DNA from: Gammaproteobacteria bacterium
Lineage (GTDB): Bacteria > Pseudomonadota > Gammaproteobacteria > Pseudomonadales > Azotimanducaceae
Direction of reading: 5' to 3'
DNA: 44,958 nucleotides
Assembly (NCBI GenBank): GCA_026705345.1
Contig: JAPPAV010000135.1
Location: 1 to 44,958, forward strand
The notes below the pieces were generated by a model. That model searched no databases, had not been told where the DNA came from, and worked only from the letters and a program-made list of their open reading frames with translations. Of the stretch, positions 9,258 to 35,941 are shown piece by piece (the first letter of the stretch is position 1; each line of letters starts with the position of its first letter). A program made the translations under genes and the position numbers.

Positions 9258-11015
9258 ATGTCCGTCATCCAAACGAGTCCCGGCCACGCCGCGCAGCACG
9301 GGGTCAACCGACGTGAAGTCTCGGTGATTCGATCCAGGCTAGACACGCGCTCGGAGCAGTACCAGATCAACCGACGGCAGATGCTGGACAAGCTCGCCTT
9401 CCTGGACGAACTCTATGAACAGGCGGCCGGGGGCGGCGGCCCGGAGGCGATGGAGCGCCTGCGCACCCGCGACAAGATGCCGATCCGGGAACGGGTCGCC
9501 AAGGTGCTCGATCCGGACTCGCCGTTCCTCGAGATCAGCCCGTTGGCCGCCTGGCATTCGCACTACACAATCGGTTCCGGGTTCACCGTCGGCATCGGGG
9601 TCATCTCGGGTGTCGAGTGCGTGATTCTCGGCCACGACCCGTCGGTGCGCGCGGGTTCCATGAACCACTTCAATTCGAAGAAGCTGATGCGCGGCTTGGA
9701 GATCGCCCGCGAGAACCGCATGCCCTACGTGCAGTTCGTCGAATCCGCCGGCGCGGATCTCGGCGCCGGTGGCCGTGGCGGCGGTGGAGGCGGCGGCCCG
9801 CGGCCCAAGCTGACCCCCGAGGAAGAACGTGCCGCGTTCGAACGCGGCGTGATGGACGGATTGCGTGGCTCGACGGGCCACTTCGCCGAGTCGGGACGTC
9901 TGTTCTACGAGATCACGGAACTGTCGAAGATGCGCATTCCGACGATCTCGGTGGTGTTCGGCGTGTCGACGGCGGGCGGTGCCTACCAGCCGGGCATGAG
10001 CGACTACAACATCTTCATTCGCGGTCGATCGCGGGTGTCCCTTGGTGGACCACCCTTGGTGAAGATGGCGACCGGCGAGGATGCCGACGGCGAAGAGCTC
10101 TCCGGCGCCCTGATGCACACCACGCTGTCGGGGCTCGGCGACTACCTGGCGGAAACCGAGGTCGACGGGATCCGCCTGTGCCGGGAGGTCGTGGCGCACC
10201 TCAACTGGCGCAAGCTGGGCCCCGGTCCGAGCCTGCCGCCGGACGAGCCCGTCTACGACAAGGAGGAGCTTCTGGGCATCCTCGGGGAGGATCTGACCAT
10301 CCCCTTCGACATGCGGGACGTCATCGCCCGCATTGTCGACGGCTCCCGGTTCGAGGAATTCAAGCCGCTGTACGGTCCGACGCTGGTGTGCGGCTGGTCG
10401 TCCATCCACGGCTATCCCATCGGCATTCTGGGCAACAACGGGGTGCTGATGTCCGAGTCCTCCGAGAAGGCGTCGCAGTTCATCCAACTCTGCAACCAGG
10501 TGGACGTGCCGCTTCTGTTCCTGCACAACATCACCGGCTACATCGTCGGCACCGACTTCGAGCAGCGCGGCATCACCAAGAACGGCTCGAAGATGATCAA
10601 CGCCGTGTCCAACTCCACGGTACCGCACATCACCGTGATCGTCGGCGCGTCCTACGGCGCGGGCAACTACGGCATGAGCGGTCGAGCCTATGGCACCCGG
10701 TTCGCGTACACCTGGCCCACCGCGAAGATCGCCGTCATGGGTCCCAAGCAGCAGGCCGGCGTCATGACCATCGTGCAGCGGGCCGCCGCCGAGCGGCGCG
10801 GGCTCGAGTTCGACGAACAAGCCGATGCCAAGCGCGTGGAGCGGGCGGAATACCAGTTGGAGGAGGCCTCCAAGGGCCTCTTCGCCACGTCCCGGGTGGC
10901 CGACGACGGCATGATCGACCCTCGCGACACCCGCGACTTCATCGGCATCTCGCTGTCCGCCTGCCACAACAACGTGGTCCAGGGCACCAAGGAGTTCGGC
11001 ACATGGCGGATGTAA
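9258..11015 (+). CDS. Acyl-CoA carboxylase carboxyltransferase (beta) subunit
   Basis: A 585-residue carboxyltransferase of the methylcrotonyl/geranyl/propionyl-CoA carboxylase type, which transfers CO2 from carboxybiotin to an acyl-CoA. Crotonase-fold halves are visible: VQFVESAGADL, then STAGGAYQPGMSDY in the N-half, and LFLHNITGYIVGTDFEQRG, GASYGAGNYGMSGRAY and AVMGPKQQAGVM in the C-half. A Gly-rich insertion (residues about 168-182) with a charged stretch after it sits where LiuB/AtuC proteins have a short loop, so the substrate site may differ. A strong Shine-Dalgarno (GGGGGAAGA) precedes the ATG. Its end overlaps the biotin carboxylase start by 13 bases. Confidence 0.88.
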   Translation: MSVIQTSPGHAAQHGVNRREVSVIRSRLDTRSEQYQINRRQMLDKLAFLDELYEQAAGGGGPEAMERLRTRDKMPIRERVAKVLDPDSPFLEISPLAAWHSHYTIGSGFTVGIGVISGVECVILGHDPSVRAGSMNHFNSKKLMRGLEIARENRMPYVQFVESAGADLGAGGRGGGGGGGPRPKLTPEEERAAFERGVMDGLRGSTGHFAESGRLFYEITELSKMRIPTISVVFGVSTAGGAYQPGMSDYNIFIRGRSRVSLGGPPLVKMATGEDADGEELSGALMHTTLSGLGDYLAETEVDGIRLCREVVAHLNWRKLGPGPSLPPDEPVYDKEELLGILGEDLTIPFDMRDVIARIVDGSRFEEFKPLYGPTLVCGWSSIHGYPIGILGNNGVLMSESSEKASQFIQLCNQVDVPLLFLHNITGYIVGTDFEQRGITKNGSKMINAVSNSTVPHITVIVGASYGAGNYGMSGRAYGTRFAYTWPTAKIAVMGPKQQAGVMTIVQRAAAERRGLEFDEQADAKRVERAEYQLEEASKGLFATSRVADDGMIDPRDTRDFIGISLSACHNNVVQGTKEFGTWRM

Positions 11016-13000
11016 CGATCAAGCCGATCCGCCGCCTGCTGATCGCCAATCGCGGCGAGATCGCGCGACGGATCATCCGCACAGCCCATGAGATGGGTAT
11101 GGCGACCGTTGCGGTTTATGCGGACGGCGATGTAGGAGCGCCTTTTGTCTTGGAAGCGGACTCGGCGATCGCCCTCAACGGCAAGACCTCCGCCGAGACC
11201 TACCTGGATATCGACAAGGTCCTCGGAGCTTGCCGGCGATCCGGTGCCGATGCGGTCCATCCGGGCTACGGTTTCCTGTCGGAGAACGCGACATTCGCCA
11301 AGGCCGTGATCGATGCGGGCCTGCGCTGGGTCGGGCCGTCGCCGGACGCGATCGGCCAGATGGGCGACAAGCTGGCGGCGAAACGGCTGATCGTGGAAGC
11401 TGACGTTCCAACGCTGCCGGCCATCGAACTCACCGCCGACGAAGATCTCGGGGCAGCGGCGGAGAAGATCGGCTACCCGGTGCTTGTCAAGGCGTCGGCC
11501 GGCGGCGGCGGGCGCGGCATGCGGATCGTCGAGACACCCGACGAACTGCCGGCAGCCGTGGAGGGCGCGCGACGGGAAGCCGGGGCGGCGTTCGGCGACG
11601 ACACGCTGTTCCTGGAACGATGGCTCACTGCCGCTCGCCACGTGGAGATCCAGATACTGGGCGACAACCACGGCAACCTGGTTCACCTGTTCGAGCGCGA
11701 GTGTTCGATTCAACGGCGTCACCAGAAAATCATCGAAGAAGCCCCTTCGCCCGCGGTGGACGACGAACTACGGGCCGCGATGGGCGAAGCGGCCGTGTCT
11801 GCGGCGCGGCGCATCGGCTACTCGTCGGCCGGCACGGTGGAGTTCCTGCTTGCCGGACGGGAGTTCTTCTTTTTGGAAGTGAACACCCGCCTGCAGGTCG
11901 AGCATCCCGTGACTGAAGAGATCACCGGTCTCGACCTGGTCCGTGAGCAACTGCGGGTCGCCGAAGGGGAGCCCTTGGGCTACGGCCAGGACGATCTTAA
12001 GTTCAGCGGCCATGCCATCGAGGCGCGCATCTACGCGGAAGATCCCGCGCGGAACTTCCTGCCGTCGCCGGGTACGGTGGACGTGTGGCAGCCCGCTGCG
12101 GATGGCTTGGCGCGCTTCGACTCCGGCGTCGAGTCGGGTAGCGACGTGAGCGTCGAGTTCGATCCGATGATCGCCAAGGTCATCGCCCACGCGCCGACCC
12201 GGCGCGAAGCCGCGGCGCGTCTGGCCCGAGCGCTCGAACGAACGTCCCTACAGGGACTGCGGAACAACCGCGACTTCCTGGTGGCGACGCTGCGCGAACC
12301 GGCGTTCCTTGCCGGGGACACGACGACCGATTTCATCGAACGCGTGGCGCCGGCCCGGATCCGTGACCTGTCGGCGGAGAACCTCGCCGATGCGGTCACC
12401 GCGGCCGTCATGTGTGCGCAGGCGATTCGGCGGGCCAACGCGAAGGTCCTGCGCGGTTTCGCGAGTGGCTGGCGCAACTCGGTGATGCCGCCGGAACGAA
12501 CGACGTTCAAGTACGCCGACCTGGAGATCCCGGTGAGCTACCGCTCGCGCCGGGACGGGACGTTTGCCATGACCGTTGCGGAACAGGACAGGACCGTTGC
12601 CGCGTTCAGCGCGGGCGTCGGCGGGGCGGATCTCGAGATCGACGGACGACGAGTGCAGTTCGCCGTGGCCGGCGGCGGCGAGAAGTGGTTCGTCCACGGC
12701 GCGGACTACGACGTCGAACTCGTCGAATTGCCGCGCCTGCCGCTGCCCGAGCAATACGAGATCAAGGGCGGTTTGACGGCGCCGATGCCCGGCAACGTGC
12801 TCGCCACCCACATCGCGGAAGGCGAGGCGGTGACGGAAGGCCAGCTACTGCTCGTGCTGGAGGCGATGAAGATGCAGCACCGCATCACCGCCCCGTTCGA
12901 CGGCACGGTGAAAGAGGTCCACGTCGAAGAAGGGCAGCAGGTGGACAACGGTGCGCTGCTGGTGCTGCTCGAAGAAGCCGGTGAATCCGGCGAAGGCTAG
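11003..13000 (+). CDS. Acyl-CoA carboxylase biotin carboxylase/biotin carrier (alpha) subunit
   Basis: A 665-residue alpha subunit that carboxylates its own biotin with ATP and bicarbonate. The biotin carboxylase N-domain begins LLIANRGEIARRI. The ATP-grasp glycine loop is KASAGGGGRGM (about 162-172), and the catalytic segment EVNTRLQVEHPVTEE is at about 292-306. The C-terminal biotinyl domain has the canonical EAMKM with Lys623. The ATG at 11003 lies inside the end of the carboxyltransferase gene (13-base overlap, other frame), so the two subunits are co-translated. It resembles MCC alpha (LiuD) or geranyl-CoA carboxylase AtuF; the sequence does not settle which substrate. Confidence 0.9.
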   Translation: MADVTIKPIRRLLIANRGEIARRIIRTAHEMGMATVAVYADGDVGAPFVLEADSAIALNGKTSAETYLDIDKVLGACRRSGADAVHPGYGFLSENATFAKAVIDAGLRWVGPSPDAIGQMGDKLAAKRLIVEADVPTLPAIELTADEDLGAAAEKIGYPVLVKASAGGGGRGMRIVETPDELPAAVEGARREAGAAFGDDTLFLERWLTAARHVEIQILGDNHGNLVHLFERECSIQRRHQKIIEEAPSPAVDDELRAAMGEAAVSAARRIGYSSAGTVEFLLAGREFFFLEVNTRLQVEHPVTEEITGLDLVREQLRVAEGEPLGYGQDDLKFSGHAIEARIYAEDPARNFLPSPGTVDVWQPAADGLARFDSGVESGSDVSVEFDPMIAKVIAHAPTRREAAARLARALERTSLQGLRNNRDFLVATLREPAFLAGDTTTDFIERVAPARIRDLSAENLADAVTAAVMCAQAIRRANAKVLRGFASGWRNSVMPPERTTFKYADLEIPVSYRSRRDGTFAMTVAEQDRTVAAFSAGVGGADLEIDGRRVQFAVAGGGEKWFVHGADYDVELVELPRLPLPEQYEIKGGLTAPMPGNVLATHIAEGEAVTEGQLLLVLEAMKMQHRITAPFDGTVKEVHVEEGQQVDNGALLVLLEEAGESGEG

Positions 13001-27321: not shown

Positions 27322-29166
27322 CTAGTCCGAAAACGGGTTGGTCGTTGTCAGCGAGATTGGCTGGCCGTAGCCGGGAACGCTGATCTCGTTGGCGGAGATC
27401 TGCAGGTCGTTGCCGTCGAGAACCCCCTGACCATACTGGTAGATCGTCGTCGCGTCGCCTCTGGTCTCGGCGGCATCGTAGTCGAGAGCCCTGCCATGGA
27501 CGGCATCGTTCCGTTGGGCATGTCGCCGCATCGCCTGCTCGCCATGCCGCGCCCTCAGCAACTCCCGGGTGACGTGGGGGCTCAGGATCACCCCGGTGGC
27601 GTTGTTGCCGCCGAACCCCTTTGAGTTGATGAAGGCGATGTCCAGGGACGCCGGGTCGATCTCGACGTGTTCGGGAGCGATGCGCAGGTTGCTGTGGTGC
27701 ACGTCGCCGGCTGGGCCGTCGATGGTCGCGATGCCGGGGATCCAGCCGTATCGCCAGGTGCCGAGCGCCGAGGAGGTCTGGTCCCCGGACGCCGGTGCCA
27801 GAGTGTGGCCGATATAGGCCTTCACTGCGGCCACGTTCCAGCGGTCGATGCCGAAGACCTTGGCCATCTCGTTCAGGATGTGCGACTCGGTGACGCGGTT
27901 TTGCGGCGTTCCGGTGCCGTGGGCGTGCACGTACGAGCGGTGCCGGACCGCGTCCTCGCCTAGGATGGCCCGTGCGCAGGCCATCGCCTTGGCGAGGGTG
28001 ACGTAGTTTCCGATGCCGGGACCCGGGATCGACTTCTTGTAGCCGTCGGCATTGACGAAGACGTCGCCGACAGCGGCGTGGATGTCGGCACCGAGTTCAA
28101 GGGCCAGGGCGTCGTCGGTGACCACGACGTAGACCGCGGCTTCGGCCAGGGTGAACCCGCAATTCTCGGCGAAGGGCCGGCAAGCTCGCCGGTTGTCGAC
28201 GGCATTGGCGCCGTCGAGGGCCATCAGGGCCTCGTCTTCGGCCAACGCACCCATCGTTCGGTAGGCCTCGACCACTTCCGGCACGATCGGCGCTTCGGCG
28301 CCGCCCACGACCGCAACCCGGCAACGCCCGGCACGAATCTCGTCCACGGCGGCCTTGAGGTTGTAGAGGAAGGTGGCACATGCCCCGATGACGCCGGCCG
28401 TCTGGCCGAGGCTGCCGATCACGTAGGCGTTGACGAAGTCGACGGGCATTTCGGGTAGTCCAAGGGCCGCCTGTTTGGCGGTCGGGCGGCGGCCCATCAT
28501 CGGCGCCTGCATCATCCCGCCGTTGCTGTAGTTGTCCAGCTGACCCATCGCACTACCCGAGTAGGCGGCAAACTCGTCCGGCCGGACATGCTTCTTGAAC
28601 GCCTCCCAGGGAATGCCAACCGACTGCACGGCATCGGAAGCCCCGTAGACGTTCAGTTGAAGACCCCGGGGGTGGTTTCGCGACGGATAGAGCTTGCTCG
28701 GTTCGAAGCCGGCGGGGGTTTGTCCGGCGGAGGTCACCTTTGACGACCGCCTGTCCGGTATCAACACGTCGAGCCGCTCGGTGGTGACTTCGATCCGTCC
28801 ATCTTCGCGCTCGTGCAACGACCACCCCGTCGGAATCTCGTCGGGTAGGTCGCGTCTCGAAATCGTGAAGCTGACCGGACCGGAGGGCGGCTGCGCCAGC
28901 CGGGCATTGCGCTGCCACCCGATGCTGTCCGGGTCGAAACAATCGATGCGCCGGATCAGCGTGTTGTCGAGGATGTGCTGGCGGACGGACTCGTCGGTGG
29001 GATCGCCATCGACGTTCATGAGTCCGGCCAGGCTCGCGAAGGTGTCATCCGCCGCGTTCTTGCCGAGCACGTCGATGACGGTGCGCCGGTAGGCGTGGTC
29101 GAAGGAAACCCGACCCGCTGGATTGATTCCGCCGAATCCGACGATTACAGGCACTGGCGAACTCAT
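27322..29166 (-). CDS. fabY: FabY-type beta-ketoacyl synthase
   Basis: A 614-residue condensing enzyme. Its length and opening (VPVIVGFGGINPAGR) match Pseudomonas aeruginosa FabY, which starts fatty acid synthesis by condensing acetyl-CoA with malonyl-ACP, the FabH job. The Cys-His-His triad is visible: Cys263 in IGACATF, His416 in HAHGTGT and His454 in YIGHTLAP. The Gly-rich KS end is NSKGFGGNNATG. The frame is open far upstream, but the ATG at 29166 begins the family N-terminus. It lies 29 bases after a thiolase gene in one operon and points away from a fused acetyl-CoA carboxylase-like gene, which would make its malonyl substrate. Confidence 0.85.
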   Translation of the reverse strand: MSSPVPVIVGFGGINPAGRVSFDHAYRRTVIDVLGKNAADDTFASLAGLMNVDGDPTDESVRQHILDNTLIRRIDCFDPDSIGWQRNARLAQPPSGPVSFTISRRDLPDEIPTGWSLHEREDGRIEVTTERLDVLIPDRRSSKVTSAGQTPAGFEPSKLYPSRNHPRGLQLNVYGASDAVQSVGIPWEAFKKHVRPDEFAAYSGSAMGQLDNYSNGGMMQAPMMGRRPTAKQAALGLPEMPVDFVNAYVIGSLGQTAGVIGACATFLYNLKAAVDEIRAGRCRVAVVGGAEAPIVPEVVEAYRTMGALAEDEALMALDGANAVDNRRACRPFAENCGFTLAEAAVYVVVTDDALALELGADIHAAVGDVFVNADGYKKSIPGPGIGNYVTLAKAMACARAILGEDAVRHRSYVHAHGTGTPQNRVTESHILNEMAKVFGIDRWNVAAVKAYIGHTLAPASGDQTSSALGTWRYGWIPGIATIDGPAGDVHHSNLRIAPEHVEIDPASLDIAFINSKGFGGNNATGVILSPHVTRELLRARHGEQAMRRHAQRNDAVHGRALDYDAAETRGDATTIYQYGQGVLDGNDLQISANEISVPGYGQPISLTTTNPFSD

Positions 29167-29195
29167 TGGATACCCCGTGGTCGGCGTTTGCGAGT

Positions 29196-30344
29196 CTACA
29201 CGCCTTCGATGGCTATGGCGGTCGCTTCGCCGCCCCCGATGCAGAGCGAGGCGACACCGCGTTTGCCGCCTCGGGCACGAAGAGCGTGGATCAAGGTCAC
29301 GATCAGCCGGCTGCCGGTGGAACCGATGGGATGGCCCTGGGCGCACGCGCCCCCGTAGACATTCACCTTGTCGGGATCCAAGCCGAGTTCGTTCATGGCG
29401 ATCATGGGTACGCAGGCGAACGCCTCGTTGATCTCGAAGATATCGACGTCGTCCTTCGACCACCCGACCTTGTTGAGCAGCCCGGCGATGGCGCCGGCGG
29501 GGGCCAGCGTGAACTTTGCAGGGTGAATCGAGTTCGTCGCATGGCCGACGATCCGGGCCAACGGTTCGGCTTGGCCGGCGATCGCCTCGTCGCCGACGAG
29601 GAGGGCGGAGGCCCCGTCGGAAATCGACGACGCATTGGCCGCGGTGATGGTTCCGTCCTTCTTGAACGCGGGTCTAAGCGTCGGAATACGCTCGATCTTC
29701 GACCGGCCGGGTTGCTCGTCCTCGGCGACCTCATCCATGGGGCTTATCTCGGCGTCGAGCGCCCCGGACGCCATCGCGGCCCGTGCCTTGGTGACCGAAC
29801 CGATGGCGAACTCGTCCATTGCTTCCCGGGTTAGTTGATGTTCGTCGGCGGTATCCTGAGCGAAGCTGCCCATGGAGCCGCCGGTTTCGGCGTCTTCCAG
29901 ACCGTCGAGGAACATGGCGTCGGCAAGTTCGGCATGGCCCATGCGCAGACCGGCTCGGGCTTTCTGCATCAGGTAGGGAGCATTGGACATACTCTCCATT
30001 CCTCCGGCGACGATGCAGCGTGCGCTTTGGGCGCGAATCAGATCGGTTGCCAGCATGGCGGCCTTCATGCCGGAACCACAGACCTTGTTGACGGTCGTCG
30101 CGCCGACCCCGTCGGGAATGCCGGCGAGTCTCATGGCTTGGCGCGCGGGCGCTTGCTTGACGCCGGCGCTGACCACGCAGCCCAGGAACACCTCGTCGAT
30201 GGCGTCAGGGTCGACCTGGGCGTTCTCGACGGTCGCCTTTACGGCGTGGGCGCCGAGTTCCGGGGCGGTCCGGTTCGAAAGCGCCCCTTGAAAACTGCCG
30301 ATCGGCGTCCGCTGGGCGCTGAGTATGTAGGCGTGCTCGGTCAT
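29196..30344 (-). CDS. Thiolase (acetyl-CoA C-acetyltransferase)
   Basis: A 382-residue thiolase with the full catalytic set: Cys89 ([10 protein letters not shown]), His338 ([16 protein letters not shown]) and Cys368 (SLCIGGGEA). The INEAFACVP motif of biosynthetic/acetoacetyl-CoA thiolases is present. It interconverts two acetyl-CoA and acetoacetyl-CoA, or cleaves longer 3-ketoacyl-CoAs. Its ATG overlaps the end of moaB by 4 bases, and fabY follows 29 bases after its stop. Length (about 390 is normal) suggests a complete gene. Confidence 0.9.
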
Positions 30345-30880
30345 GGGGTCTCCGTCTTGTCTTGGCCTTCGCGGAACCGCGGCAACAGCTCGGCGAAGTT
30401 GCAGGGCTTGAAACTTGCGTCGAACTGGTTTCCGAGGATCTTGTCCCACGCGGTCCGGCACGCATTGGTGGATCCGGGCATGGCGAATACCAGGGTCGCG
30501 TTGGCGAGGCCCGCGACGGCCCGGGACTGGATCGTCGAACTGCCGATCTCCGAGTACGACACCTGGCGGAAGAGTTCGCCGAAGCCGTCGATGGTCTTGT
30601 CGAATAGGGGGGCCAGGGCCTCCGGCGTGCTATCCCGCCCGGTGAAACCCGTGCCGCCGGTGGTGAGGATTGCATCAACCCCCGGATCGGCGATCCAGGC
30701 GCTCACCACGGCGCGAATCTCGTAGACGTCGTCGCGCACGATCCGGCGCCCCCGGAGTCGATGGCCGGCCTGTTCGAGCCGGTCGACGAGCACGTCGCCC
30801 GAGGTGTCCTCGTCCGGTCCCCGGGTGTCCGAAACCGTCAATACAGCGATGGCGAGAGCCTGGTCGGCGGGGTGAGACAT
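30341..30880 (-). CDS. moaB: Molybdenum cofactor biosynthesis protein MoaB
   Basis: A 179-residue MoaB/MogA-fold protein that acts on molybdopterin (adenylation in the family). Motifs are [56 protein letters not shown] and [18 protein letters not shown]. No other moa/moe gene is in the window. It is the first gene of a three-gene operon with the thiolase and fabY, joined by a 4-base overlap. A functional link to fatty acid synthesis is not obvious. Confidence 0.93.
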
Positions 30881-30946
30881 GTCGGGTATCGCGGTGATTT
30901 TGGGGCGAAAATCGGTGTCAATCCCATGCTGGATTTAGCACCGAGT

Positions 30947-31015
30947 TTGTGGAATCGTTCACACCCTACTATACAGCGCCCAGCGATTGAGCAACTTAAG
31001 AGAGTCAGAGACTCT
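30947..31015 (+). promoter_or_regulatory. Candidate promoter and leader hairpin of the fused carboxylase
   Basis: TTGTGG (30947-30952) and TATACA (30970-30975) have a 17-base spacer. A small perfect hairpin AGAGTC-AGA-GACTCT follows at 31001-31015 in the ~100-base leader. This placement argues that the upstream in-frame ATG at 30926 is not the start codon. Confidence 0.5.
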
Positions 31016-31078
31016 AACCACGGAGTAGCAAGCGAAGGGAAGCCGCATGCGGACAACACCGCAAAGCGCGATAGAGCG

Positions 31079-34000
31079 ATGGACAAGAACGCCTTAGGCG
31101 ACCTGTATCTGATCGCCGAGAACCTCGCCCAGGACTCGTCGCTGGTCCCGGAGGCGGAGAAGGAGTTCGATCCGCCCCTGCGCGGCGTCCTGACCGAGGC
31201 AGAAGTCCTGCGTCAAGCCGACGTGCTCGACAACATGGACATCGACTCGTACATCGAGGCGGTCGTCGCCAACGCCGAAGACCCGAAGCGAATTCCCGCG
31301 CCGGACGTGATTCGCCGGCTTGGCGACGTGGTGAGCGAGGATCGCGACGGACCGTTCTACGCCGCCGAGGTCACGATGGACTTCGATGGCGAGCCAAGGC
31401 GTATCGGCTTCATCGCGCAGAACCGGGCCGTGCGCAGCGGCGAGTGGATGCCGGAGCACCATCTGAAGGCCGCCCATGCCATCGTGGAGTTCGCCAATCG
31501 CTCCATACCCATCGTCAGTCTCATGGACACGCCCGGGGCGGCCGGCGACGAGGTTGCCAACAAGAACAACCAGTCGCACAGCATTTCCCGGCTGATTGCG
31601 GAAATGTCCAACACCGATGTTCCGAATCTGGGCGTGGTCTACGGCCTCGGCTACTCGGGCGGCGCGATTCCGCTGGCCGCCAGCAACCTGATCCTGTCGT
31701 TGCGCGATGGCGTGTTCAGCACCATCCAGCCGAAGGGGCTCGCAAGCATCGCCCGGCGGCTGAACCTTTCCTGGCAGCAGTGCGCGAAACAGGTGGGACT
31801 GTCGCCCTACGAACTGCGCCGGCAAGGCAATATCGACGCCATCGTCGACTACGTTCCGGGCGAGGACATCGAAAACCTGCGTCTGGCCATCGTGTCGGGC
31901 ATTCAACACGTGGAGGAGGGGATCAAGCGCTTCGTCCGGGAGAATCCCTACGTTCTCGACGAATACCGCCGCAGCATCGGGCGCTATTTGGATCCGTCCG
32001 AACGACTGCGCAAGGTGCAGGCGAGCGCCGCGCTCAAACTGACCAAGAACCCCACCGAATATCTCAACGTTTTCGGAATCGCGTACCGCTACCTGCGCTA
32101 CCTTCGCGTGCGCCGACGTATCAAAGCCACCTCCACGCAGTCCTACGGACGATTATCGGAACAGGAACTGCCGGCGGGCGAACTGGCCGCACGCACGGAC
32201 CGCGAACGGCGCGAGACCTTCCTGCGATGGCTCCAGGATCCGGACCGGGTGATCTACGACGATTCCCTGTCCCGCGCCTGGAAGAACTATGTCGACCGGA
32301 AGCAGACGGTCCACGACGAACGCGGACGCATCATGCAGTTCATTTTCGGCGAGCGTCGCCAGAACTACGAGGACGCCCGCCGCACGCTCATCTCGACGGT
32401 CGGCATGTACCTCTACAATCGATGGAAGAACGACGCCTCGGGCAATTTCCGTTCGCTGAAGTCGTTCGCCGAGAACGTCTCGGAGACGCGGCATTTGTTC
32501 CGGGTTTCGGAACTCAATGAACCGCGCGAGCTGATCAACGCGATTCGCGAGGACGAGGTGCTTGGTCCGGCATTGCGTCAGCGGTTTACCCACGAAGGCA
32601 TGAAATTGTTCGGCGACGTGGCCGACAAATCGGACGCCTTCCTGCGCGAGCAAATCGCCGCCGAACTCAACATGGCGATTACCGAGGGTCCCTTGGCGGA
32701 GTCGGCGCTCGGCGGTTCGTTGTCGTCCCAGGCTCGCAACGCCGTGAATGGCGAGGCGTCGACCATCGTGGCCAACCGCCTGATTCTCGACGACCGGCTT
32801 GGCACGGGCATGGAAAGACTCGAAACCGAAGGCAGCGAACCCGTTCTGTCGGACATGACCGTCGTCGATGTCGTCCTTCACGAAGAGTTGCGGGATGACT
32901 ATGCGCAGGAGTGCGAGAACCTGCTGCTGTTCGACCAAGTCTACGATCACCTGATCGCCAATCTCGAATCCATCGCCGAGGAGGCGGAATCGACCCGCGC
33001 GCTATCGAAGTCGTCGCTGAGCCGGTTGATCGAAACGGCCTTGGCAGAGGCGGCAAAGAGTCTGTCCGAGGACGATGCGGCCGCGCAACGTTTCACGACC
33101 CAGTTCTTCGACTGGTACATGAGGACTTCGAAGATGCCTCGTTCCAACCGGTTCTTCCGGGATGTCGAGGAGTGGAAGAAGAACGCAAGTCCCCATGTAT
33201 CGGACACGCTCTTCGTCGTGGTCACGTTCATGTTCGAGAAGCTGCTCGCATCCTATCTGCAGTCGGAAAGGGAAGGGCGGCGCTACGACGGTCGCATCGC
33301 ACCGCGCAACATCGGTCGCCGCAAGGATTTCTGGAATCGCCTGATTCAGGCCTATCGCGATCTACTGATCCGTGAAACGCTACAGAGGTACAAGCGTGCG
33401 AAGGTCACCGGCTACGGCGCGTTCATCGAGCGTTTCTTCTCGGAGTTCGAGGAATTGAACGGCGATCTGATCAGTTCGGATCCGCACCGTTTTCCGGGTT
33501 TGCGGGTTTCCATCGAGGGCGCCCTGCAGAAGGGCACGGCACCCTGCGGGGTGGTGACGGGAATCGGTCGTTTCGACAACAGGTCGGAGGGTTTGCGCGT
33601 CGGCACCGTGATCTCCAATCTCGAGTTCAAGGCCGGCGCATTCGACATGGCGAGTGCCGAGAAATTCTGCAAGCTCATGGTTGCGTGTGCGGAACAGAGC
33701 CTGCCCATCGTCTGCTTCATTTCGTCGAGCGGCATGCAGACGATGGAAGGCGCCGGCGCACTGTTTTCGATGGCGGCGATCAACGACCGCATCACCCGAT
33801 TCGTGCGCGACTACGACCTGCCGGTGATCGTGTTCGGTTTCGGTGATTGCACCGGCGGCGCCCAGGCCAGTTTCGTCACCCATCCGCTGGTTCAAACGTA
33901 CTACTTCTCGGGTGCCAGCATGCCCTTCGCTGGCCAGATCGTCGTGTCGAGCTACCTGCCGTCGGACTCCCATCTGTCCAACTACCTGTTCAACGAGCCG

Positions 34001-35941
34001 GGGTCGATGCAAGGCCTCGTGCAGCACCCGTTCCTGCCCCAACTCGACGACGAGCTGCGCAAGATCGACCCCGAGATCCCCGTTCCCCAGGAAACGGTGG
34101 AGGACGTCGTCAATCGGATCATGGCGGGGGTTCTCACCCAGGAGAAGCCCGCGGTAACCCCGCGCCGACAGTTCAGCGAAGGCGAACTGTTCCGTCCGGT
34201 CAGGAAGATGCTGGTCCACGCCAGGGGCTGCACGGCGGTGAAACTCGTACGCGTCGCGCAGAAGCACGGCGTCGGCGTCGTCCTGGTGCAGTCCGACCCC
34301 GACATGGAGTCGGTGCCGGTGGACATGCTCGGCGCCAAGGATGCCGTGGTCTGCATCGGCGGCAATACGCCGGACGAGAGCTACTTGAATGCCCGTTCGG
34401 TGGTGCGCATCGCCGAGGACGAGCGTGTGGACTCGCTGCACCCGGGAATCGGATTCCTGTCCGAGAACGCGCAGTTCGCGGAGTTGGTTCGGTCCCGGGG
34501 GATCAACTTCGTCGGCCCGCCGGTGGCGAGCATGGAAACCATGGGCAACAAGTCGAACGCGATTGCCACGGCGTTGGATCATGGCGTGCCCGTGGTACCG
34601 GGCAGCCACGGCATCCTGACCGACGGCGACCGCGCCGCTGAGACCGCGGCGTCCATCGGCTACCCGGTGCTGATCAAGGCCGTGCACGGGGGTGGCGGCA
34701 AGGGCATCCAGGTCGTCGAAACCGCGGACGACTTCCACGAGGCCTTCCACCGCGTGTCTGTGGAGGCGCGCGCCGCGTTCGGCAACGGTGACGTCTATTT
34801 GGAACGCTACGTCACATCGTTGCGCCACATCGAGGTCCAGGTGCTGCGCGACTCACACGGCACCACCAAGGTGCTCGGGCTCCGTGACTGCAGCGTGCAG
34901 CGCGACAAGCAGAAGGTGATCGAAGAGTCGGGCTCGACGATGCTGCCGGGCGAACAGGGCGATGCGGTGCGGCGTCATGCCGCCGCCTTGGCGGATGCCG
35001 TCGGCTACGTGGGTGCGGGAACCGTGGAGTTCATCTACGACCTCGACTCCGGCGAGGTCTACTTCATGGAGATGAACACGCGGCTGCAGGTCGAGCATCC
35101 CGTTACCGAATGGGTTTCCGGCGTCGACATCGTCGGCGAGCAACTGCGCATCGCGGCGGGGGAGAGCATCGAGGATCTGGCGATCGGCGACGACGGCTAT
35201 GCCATCGAGGCGCGCATCAACGCGGAAAAGGTGGTCGAGTCGTCCACGGGCGAGCTCCTCTTTGCACCGAGCCCCGGCGCGATCACCGAATGCGAGTTTC
35301 CCCAGGAGGACGGCATCGACATCATTGCCGCCGCTGGCGAGGGTCGCTTCGTGTCGCCCTACTACGACAGCATGATCGCGCAGATCATTGCGCGCGGACC
35401 CGATCGGACGTCGGTCGCACGGAAGCTCGCCGACTATCTCGATCGCGTACGAATCCGCGGCATTGCAACGAACGTCGTCTTGGTCAAGCGGGTGTTGCGT
35501 GACGAAGTCTTCCAGCGCGGCGACTACGACACGGGCTACTTGCCGGAGCTCTTGGGGCGCGTCGATGCCCGGGAGTTGATGGCGGAGATCGCCGACGCGG
35601 CCGGCGCGGCCGACGGTGCCATCGGTCGGGAATCCATCGCGATCGAGGACAGCGACGAACTCAAGGTGCTCGCCCCGTCGACCGGCATCCTCTATCTCAC
35701 GCCGTCGCCAAGCGAACCGCAATACGTCGTTGTCGGCGACCGCGTCTCGACGGCGGCGACGTTGTGCCAGCTCGAGGCGTTCAAGATCTTCGCCCCGGTG
35801 CACCTTGGCGACTTCAATTCGCCGGACCAACCGCCGCTGTACGAGCCCGACCGGCAGTTCGAGATCACCCGCGTCAACGTCAGCGGCGGCCAACAGGTGA
35901 ACGCGGGCGACCTGCTGTTCGTCGTGCGGCCGGTTATCTAA
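31079..35941 (+). CDS. Single-chain acetyl-CoA carboxylase-like protein (AccA-AccD-BC-biotinyl fusion)
   Basis: A 1620-residue cytoplasmic protein. Residues about 80-280 are AccA-like (SIPIVSLMDTPGAAGDE, YGLGYSGGAIPLAAS, FSTIQPKGLASI). About 280-800 is a helical, charged region I cannot assign. About 800-980 is AccD-like (GVVTGIGRFD, ISSSGMQTMEGAGALF, GFGDCTGGAQASF) without the AccD zinc finger. About 1035-1475 is biotin carboxylase (HPGIGFLSENAQFAELV, KAVHGGGGKGIQVV, RDCSVQRDKQKVIEE, FMEMNTRLQVEHPVTE). The last 90 residues are biotinyl-like with EAFKI (Lys1569) in place of EAMKM, and an extra loop after the lysine. The expected reaction is acetyl-CoA to malonyl-CoA. The start ATG at 31079 lies before the first family-like residues; ATG 30926 is in frame but falls in the promoter. 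Divergent from moaB-thiolase-fabY. Confidence 0.82.
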   Translation: MDKNALGDLYLIAENLAQDSSLVPEAEKEFDPPLRGVLTEAEVLRQADVLDNMDIDSYIEAVVANAEDPKRIPAPDVIRRLGDVVSEDRDGPFYAAEVTMDFDGEPRRIGFIAQNRAVRSGEWMPEHHLKAAHAIVEFANRSIPIVSLMDTPGAAGDEVANKNNQSHSISRLIAEMSNTDVPNLGVVYGLGYSGGAIPLAASNLILSLRDGVFSTIQPKGLASIARRLNLSWQQCAKQVGLSPYELRRQGNIDAIVDYVPGEDIENLRLAIVSGIQHVEEGIKRFVRENPYVLDEYRRSIGRYLDPSERLRKVQASAALKLTKNPTEYLNVFGIAYRYLRYLRVRRRIKATSTQSYGRLSEQELPAGELAARTDRERRETFLRWLQDPDRVIYDDSLSRAWKNYVDRKQTVHDERGRIMQFIFGERRQNYEDARRTLISTVGMYLYNRWKNDASGNFRSLKSFAENVSETRHLFRVSELNEPRELINAIREDEVLGPALRQRFTHEGMKLFGDVADKSDAFLREQIAAELNMAITEGPLAESALGGSLSSQARNAVNGEASTIVANRLILDDRLGTGMERLETEGSEPVLSDMTVVDVVLHEELRDDYAQECENLLLFDQVYDHLIANLESIAEEAESTRALSKSSLSRLIETALAEAAKSLSEDDAAAQRFTTQFFDWYMRTSKMPRSNRFFRDVEEWKKNASPHVSDTLFVVVTFMFEKLLASYLQSEREGRRYDGRIAPRNIGRRKDFWNRLIQAYRDLLIRETLQRYKRAKVTGYGAFIERFFSEFEELNGDLISSDPHRFPGLRVSIEGALQKGTAPCGVVTGIGRFDNRSEGLRVGTVISNLEFKAGAFDMASAEKFCKLMVACAEQSLPIVCFISSSGMQTMEGAGALFSMAAINDRITRFVRDYDLPVIVFGFGDCTGGAQASFVTHPLVQTYYFSGASMPFAGQIVVSSYLPSDSHLSNYLFNEPGSMQGLVQHPFLPQLDDELRKIDPEIPVPQETVEDVVNRIMAGVLTQEKPAVTPRRQFSEGELFRPVRKMLVHARGCTAVKLVRVAQKHGVGVVLVQSDPDMESVPVDMLGAKDAVVCIGGNTPDESYLNARSVVRIAEDERVDSLHPGIGFLSENAQFAELVRSRGINFVGPPVASMETMGNKSNAIATALDHGVPVVPGSHGILTDGDRAAETAASIGYPVLIKAVHGGGGKGIQVVETADDFHEAFHRVSVEARAAFGNGDVYLERYVTSLRHIEVQVLRDSHGTTKVLGLRDCSVQRDKQKVIEESGSTMLPGEQGDAVRRHAAALADAVGYVGAGTVEFIYDLDSGEVYFMEMNTRLQVEHPVTEWVSGVDIVGEQLRIAAGESIEDLAIGDDGYAIEARINAEKVVESSTGELLFAPSPGAITECEFPQEDGIDIIAAAGEGRFVSPYYDSMIAQIIARGPDRTSVARKLADYLDRVRIRGIATNVVLVKRVLRDEVFQRGDYDTGYLPELLGRVDARELMAEIADAAGAADGAIGRESIAIEDSDELKVLAPSTGILYLTPSPSEPQYVVVGDRVSTAATLCQLEAFKIFAPVHLGDFNSPDQPPLYEPDRQFEITRVNVSGGQQVNAGDLLFVVRPVI

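Follow-up and report, generated by a model that had tools for sequence, protein, structure and literature searches.

A gene of the window (the whole stretch of 44,958 nucleotides analyzed here) almost certainly encodes, judging by its sequence, the orthologue of Shewanella oneidensis AccS (AccADCB), a complete one-chain acetyl-CoA carboxylase (ACC) that takes the place of AccABCD in this lineage (Table 1). ACC carries out the first step of fatty-acid synthesis. This one-chain layout is unusual and real, but it was already known from S. oneidensis, and the additions made here, a changed biotin motif and a selected orphan accB, are modest. Many AccS members were added beyond Shewanella, in an uncultured Pseudomonadales group and in a Thalassolituus/Oceanobacter/Bermanella group, as judged by the names of the nearest loci. 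In the family of the window's genome, the presence of AccS goes with the absence of accA, accD, and accC over cut-off, and accB is often left behind.

The best match among solved structures was PDB 9kkm_A/9w4a, "Acetyl-CoA carboxylase multifunctional enzyme AccADCB" (1,517 aa; 1,664 bits in total). It covered residues 114 to 576 (457 bits) and 689 to 1725 (1,208 bits) of the window chain, with the order conserved. The 9kkm entry, released on 2025-11-19, is titled as an acetyl-CoA carboxyltransferase holoenzyme dimer of S. oneidensis with the mutation E1238A. From the species, the name, and the equal length (1,517 aa), it probably corresponds to SO_0840. According to the excerpt of PMC4793157 available, homologues of AccABCD were not found in S. 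oneidensis, AccS (SO_0840, 1,517 aa) stands in their place, and an additional AccB (SO_0511, 152 aa) is on record. Excerpts of PMC11602165 describe accS as encoding a multiple-domain ACCase with a domain order unlike that of eukaryotes, and AccS as biotinylated, with a band near 170 kDa. In the same excerpts, AccR, a LysR-type regulator, activates accS; an accR mutant underproduces AccS, and its growth recovered with accS and also with E. coli accA, accD, and accBC.

The window protein resembles S. oneidensis AccS in the CTalpha-middle-CTbeta-BC-BCCP arrangement, with similarity along most of the chain, as well as in the replacement of AccABCD and the presence of an extra AccB in the genome. 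The earlier note knew of no characterized enzyme with this layout and allowed that a published one would overturn its claim. S. oneidensis AccS has the same layout (PMC4793157, PMC11602165; PDB 9kkm, 9w4a), and the claim of novelty therefore fails. A literature search by the PDB codes 9kkm and 9w4a, and for a Shewanella single chain studied by cryo-EM, found no paper. A search for "AccADCB" found one paper, which uses the name in a Berkiella gene list, and the excerpt of PMC3199775 contains no mention of Shewanella. By analogy with S. oneidensis and the family, the window protein would share the biotinylation, the reaction, and the oligomeric state of AccS.

Table 1. Features of the window and of its genome discussed in the text
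Feature	Position	Strand	Remarks
accS, single-chain acetyl-CoA carboxylase	31079..35941	+	1620 aa
CT-alpha (AccA-like) domain	31328..31960	+	residues ~190-400; DTPGA and SGGA motifs align with 3 accA proteins
Middle region, mostly helical	31961..33400	+	no Pfam match; model matches S. oneidensis AccS (9kkm)
CT-beta (AccD-like) domain without zinc finger	33428..34090	+	profile, motif alignment
Biotin carboxylase domain, ATP-grasp	34199..35554	+	GGGGKG, QKVIEES, EFIYD, MEMNTRLQVEHP, and ARINAE align with BC proteins
Biotin carboxyl carrier domain, C-terminal	35591..35926	+	profile and alignment with 9kkm
Codon of the presumed biotinyl lysine K1675	35783..35785	+	EAFKI; aligned S. oneidensis AccS has EAMKM
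moaB	30341..30880	-	divergent, upstream of accS; TIGR02667, 269 bits (cut-off 222.4)
Thiolase gene	29196-30461	-	beyond moaB; TIGR01930, 386 bits (240.55)
Ketoacyl-synthase-like gene	27322-29463	-	beyond the thiolase gene
Orphan accB	L008:1501-1926 (G000:C51:7699-8118)		between aroQ and prmA, accC missing; intact ESMKM

Reading frame and start of the gene

The open frame runs from 30761 to 35941 on the forward strand (1,726 aa), and residues of the window chain are numbered in this frame, counted from 30761. Two candidate starts were considered. The ATG at 30761 falls within moaB on the opposite strand. In five close relatives (L016, L017, L018, L021, and L027), the DNA was matched from residue 1 by tblastn, and the stop-to-stop frames start only at about residue 79 to 90; in most of the remaining loci, the match begins at about residue 95 to 115. 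Because 30761 is antisense to moaB and the frame is closed upstream in the five close relatives, we rejected this start and kept 31079, the start (1,620 aa) chosen in the earlier note. An unbroken frame of more than 1,600 aa, aligned from about residue 115 or earlier to the end, was found in 41 of the 52 tblastn loci; an artefact of assembly or frame was therefore rejected.

Domains of the chain

The presence of AccA-like, AccD-like, biotin carboxylase (BC), and biotinyl-like domains in one gene had been proposed from the letters of the sequence, and profiles and alignments agree with it. From the N to the C terminus, the chain consists of CT-alpha, a helical stretch that no Pfam family matched, CT-beta without a zinc finger, BC, and a biotinyl domain; the positions of the profile matches confirmed this order as first read. 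Pfam ACCA matched residues 227 to 368 with 91 bits (cut-off, 23), and a BC profile matched residues 1147 to 1598 with 478 bits. The Pfam models for ACCA, Carboxyl_trans, and biotin carboxylase exceeded their curated cut-offs, and the NCBIfam models all fell short of theirs: AccA_sub in CT-alpha (residues 219 to 393, 107 bits), TIGR00515 in CT-beta (residues 895 to 1088, 39 bits), and TIGR00531 in the carrier (residues 1611 to 1680, 38 bits). The Pfam biotinyl models were likewise under cut-off (Biotin_lipoyl_2, 20.7 of 29.8; Biotin_lipoyl, 14.6 of 22.1); the assignment of the carrier domain is therefore drawn mainly from the alignment with 9kkm.

The CT motifs aligned with accA and accD of relatives, and the BC motifs aligned with 4mv1, with other BC chains, and with accC of relatives. 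The possibility that the first and third parts lie outside the carboxyltransferase family was rejected, since both profiles and alignments place them inside it. No CxxC was present anywhere in the window chain, whereas three accD proteins from relatives contain two apiece, in agreement with the proposed lack of a zinc finger in the AccD part.

No Pfam family matched residues ~400 to 890. An AlphaFold model of residues 390 to 900, computed from 38 aligned sequences (the window and 37 of the 47 mapped locus stretches), had a mean pLDDT of 80.9 and a pTM of 0.75. When this model was compared with the PDB by Foldseek, the only match at an E value of ≤0.001 was to 9kkm (9kkm_A, E = 8.6e-15; TM of 0.51 by query length, in a loose superposition with an rmsd of 15 Å), and eukaryotic ACC was not matched. 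The middle region is therefore of the same fold as in S. oneidensis AccS, although its parts may be arranged differently, with no wider fold recognized. By analogy with S. oneidensis and the family, it may act as a scaffold. Residues 577 to 688 (32489-32824) are extra to the alignment with S. oneidensis AccS, where they have no counterpart; L052 and L168 likewise left these residues unaligned.

Comparison with other ACCs

The split bacterial ACC of the E. coli type (AccABCD) is built of CTalpha, CTbeta, BC, and BCCP modules homologous to those of the window protein. It has separate chains and a zinc finger in CTbeta, whereas the window protein is one chain with a CTbeta lacking the finger, an added middle region, and NCBIfam scores under the cut-offs. 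Eukaryotic ACC, like the window protein, holds every activity in one chain, but its order is BC-BCCP-CT in the excerpt of PMC3199775. In the window chain, the CT parts lead and BC and the carrier end the chain, all in one frame, so the contrast that had been drawn with both the eukaryotic order and the split bacterial enzymes holds.

Two other kinds of single chain are known. The multidomain ACC of Saccharopolyspora erythraea has the order BC-BCCP-CT. The long-chain acyl-CoA carboxylase (LCC) of mycobacteria and pseudomonads contains BC, BCCP, and CT in a single, BC-first chain of about 1,100 aa. The S. erythraea enzyme shares with the window protein its nature as a single-chain bacterial ACC and differs from it in domain order; LCC, also a single chain with BC, BCCP, and CT, differs in order and length. 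The excerpt of PMC6491548 presents the S. erythraea protein (SACE_4237) as a multidomain single-chain bacterial ACC feeding fatty-acid synthesis.

Stand-alone acc genes in related genomes

We compared 38 genomes, the window's own (G000; 5.07 Mb, 151 contigs, 100% complete by estimate) and its relatives, of which G000 to G024 form the family and G025 to G037 belong to other families of the order. A profile search of G000 found no accA, accC, or accD over the curated cut-off and one stand-alone accB over it. A search of the genome for separate accABCD had been suggested in the earlier note, and this outcome is as expected for a replacement of the split ACC. The AccS middle region was found in 25 of the 38 genomes, that is, in 24 of the 25 family genomes (not in G017) and, weakly, in G030.

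Over cut-off, accA was present in 12, accD in 13, and accC in 14 of the 38 genomes. The family accounted for none of 25 in the case of accA and accD and for 1 of 25 in the case of accC (G017, which is without AccS), so that every one of the 24 family genomes with AccS was without accA, accD, and accC over cut-off. The corresponding counts in the other families were 12/13, 13/13, and 13/13; the accA of G036 is a contig-edge fragment slightly under the cut-off. In a class-wide sample of 185 genomes drawn evenly and including G000, accA was over cut-off in at least 175, and AccS chains were found in at least four: G000, G213 (1,522 aa), G076 (1,618 aa), and G237 (1,532 aa; L168, G237:C28). The chain of G237 occurs together with stand-alone accA and accB, and G030 has an AccS-like chain of 1,527 aa (L145, G030:C8) together with stand-alone accA, accB, accC, and accD. 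AccS thus does not serve as the only ACC in every case.

These counts bear on a different reading, in which the window chain carboxylates a longer or different substrate (propionyl- or long-chain acyl-CoA) and acetyl-CoA is carboxylated elsewhere. This could be argued from the CT parts, which score far under the curated cut-offs of the accA and accD models, from the several other BC-bearing chains of G000 (the accC model gave 15 matches in all, none over cut-off), and from the accA found beside an AccS-like chain in G030, with its full set, and in G237. However, the 24 AccS-bearing family genomes are all without accA and accD over cut-off. Furthermore, in the excerpts of PMC11602165, S. oneidensis AccS is treated as the ACCase, and the effect of its underproduction is relieved by the E. 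coli acc genes. We therefore regard another substrate as extremely improbable and retain a one-chain ACC. In such an enzyme, the BC domain would carboxylate biotin with ATP and bicarbonate, the biotin being attached to the lysine in the C-terminal carrier. The single chain takes over from AccABCD in this lineage.

G017 (family f1) had accB and two accC genes over cut-off, one accC with an internal TGA; the AccS middle region, accA, and accD were not found in it at the thresholds used. Either an incomplete assembly or another carboxyltransferase may account for this gene set.

Biotin motif and orphan accB

All 48 rows read, among them two pieces of the window, retain the lysine of the biotin motif. 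The motif is EAMKM in S. oneidensis, in the Thalassolituus-type group (EAMKL in L050), and in G016 and G023; it is EAMKI in G018 to G020 and L040, and EAFKI or EAFKV in the window's clade. In a midpoint-rooted FastTree phylogeny of 55 chains, the 21 EAFK members formed one clade (support, 0.985), whose only two other members were truncated and without the motif. The 55 chains remained after a length limit of 1,400 aa and removal of the duplicates L141 (= L064) and L142 (= L028). L135, L136, and L144 to L149 were left out, the frame of L043 is broken partway and gave a long branch, and L021, L029, and L046 had no readable motif. Since the EAFK members fall in one clade, the Met-to-Phe change is most simply of single origin, and this replacement next to the biotinyl lysine (EAMKM to EAFKI/V) may be a new detail.

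An accB gene was over cut-off in 34 of the 38 genomes. Of the 24 family genomes with AccS, 20 have it, the exceptions being G001, G021, G022, and G024. At the loci of the other families, a BC gene follows accB in 13 of 13 and aroQ lies upstream in 12 of 13. We read the accB neighborhoods of 16 of the 20 AccS-bearing family genomes (G007, G008, G012, and G013 left out). Two, G016 and G023, retain accC, a divergent gene beside accB that scored 551 and 565 bits, under the cut-off, with the BC motifs retained. The other 14 have aroQ-accB without a BC match in up to 1.5 kb per side, with prmA next in 13 and a contig edge in 1. The order aroQ-accB-prmA was also found in L105, from the genome of L040. 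Among these 15 orphan genes (the 14 and L105), the median dN/dS was 0.24 (84 of 105 pairs), compared with 0.16 for aroQ (86 of 105 pairs), pairs with a dS of ≥2 or not computable being excluded (21 and 19 of 105, respectively). ESMKM was intact in 15 of 15. From these values, the orphan accB looks to be kept by selection. A literature search on orphan accB gave nothing on the subject among the matches listed; the retention of accB where aroQ-accB-accC has lost accC may be a new detail, an additional AccB being already recorded in S. oneidensis.

The left-over accB and the altered motif pose a concrete question, namely, the number of carriers per single-chain ACC. With a separate accB in G000, the enzyme may use a carrier besides the one in its chain. 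Among 33 genomes behind the tblastn loci, mostly of the Thalassolituus type (completeness not stated; L036 left out), accB was over cut-off in one, and the AccS-bearing G213 and G076 had no accB over cut-off. Therefore, AccS in general does not require accB. The genomes with EAFKV (L028, L055, L059, L060, L066, and L065, the last with a split frame) likewise had no accB over cut-off; nor was one found in G021, which carries EAFKI and has a completeness score of 100%. Motif change and accB retention are thus not simply coupled, and the EAFK motif by itself was rejected as the explanation of the kept accB.

One could still suppose that the in-chain carrier of the EAFK clade is no longer biotinylated and that AccS draws in trans on the biotin of the orphan AccB. 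The single origin of EAFK (21 members and 2 truncated ones) is consistent with such a switch, as are the retained ESMKM and the purifying selection on the orphan gene. But the AccS lysine is kept in every row, the EAFKV genomes and G021 are without accB over cut-off, and the orphan also occurs alongside EAMKI (G018 to G020 and L040). S. oneidensis, moreover, has an extra AccB, and yet its EAMKM AccS is biotinylated (excerpts of PMC4793157 and PMC11602165). In the part of PMC11602165 available, two bands, AccS and LiuD, are described on a streptavidin blot and no AccB band is mentioned, which argues against a large pool of biotinylated AccB in S. oneidensis, unless it ran outside the range shown. 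We consider a full handover to AccB very unlikely. Somewhat less doubtful, though still unlikely and offered as a speculation, is that two carriers operate in the EAFK clade: the domain within the chain, in which EAMK became EAFK on a single occasion, and a selected free AccB, left after the loss of accC, accA, and accD. Acting in trans, this AccB might load carboxyl-biotin or relay it; alternatively, it might signal the status of biotin or of ACC to the cell.

Genomic neighborhood

In 26 of the tblastn loci L016 to L066, those other than L052 and the Thalassolituus-type group, moaB was found beside accS in 23 and the synthase gene in 22; part of the misses fall on short contigs, and L067 is not in the neighbor table. 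Neither gene adjoins accS in G016 and G023. A different ketoacyl-synthase-like stretch (~26 to 28% identity) is located directly upstream in 16 of 24 Thalassolituus-type loci. The immediate divergent neighbor of the window's accS is not a LysR gene but moaB, whereas in Shewanella it is the regulator gene accR, according to the excerpts of PMC11602165. Elsewhere in the window, at 9617-13000, there is a second biotin-dependent carboxylase chain, with BC, a BT domain of the MCC-alpha type, and BCCP; the ~470 residues preceding its BC match are without a Pfam hit and probably reflect an over-long start.
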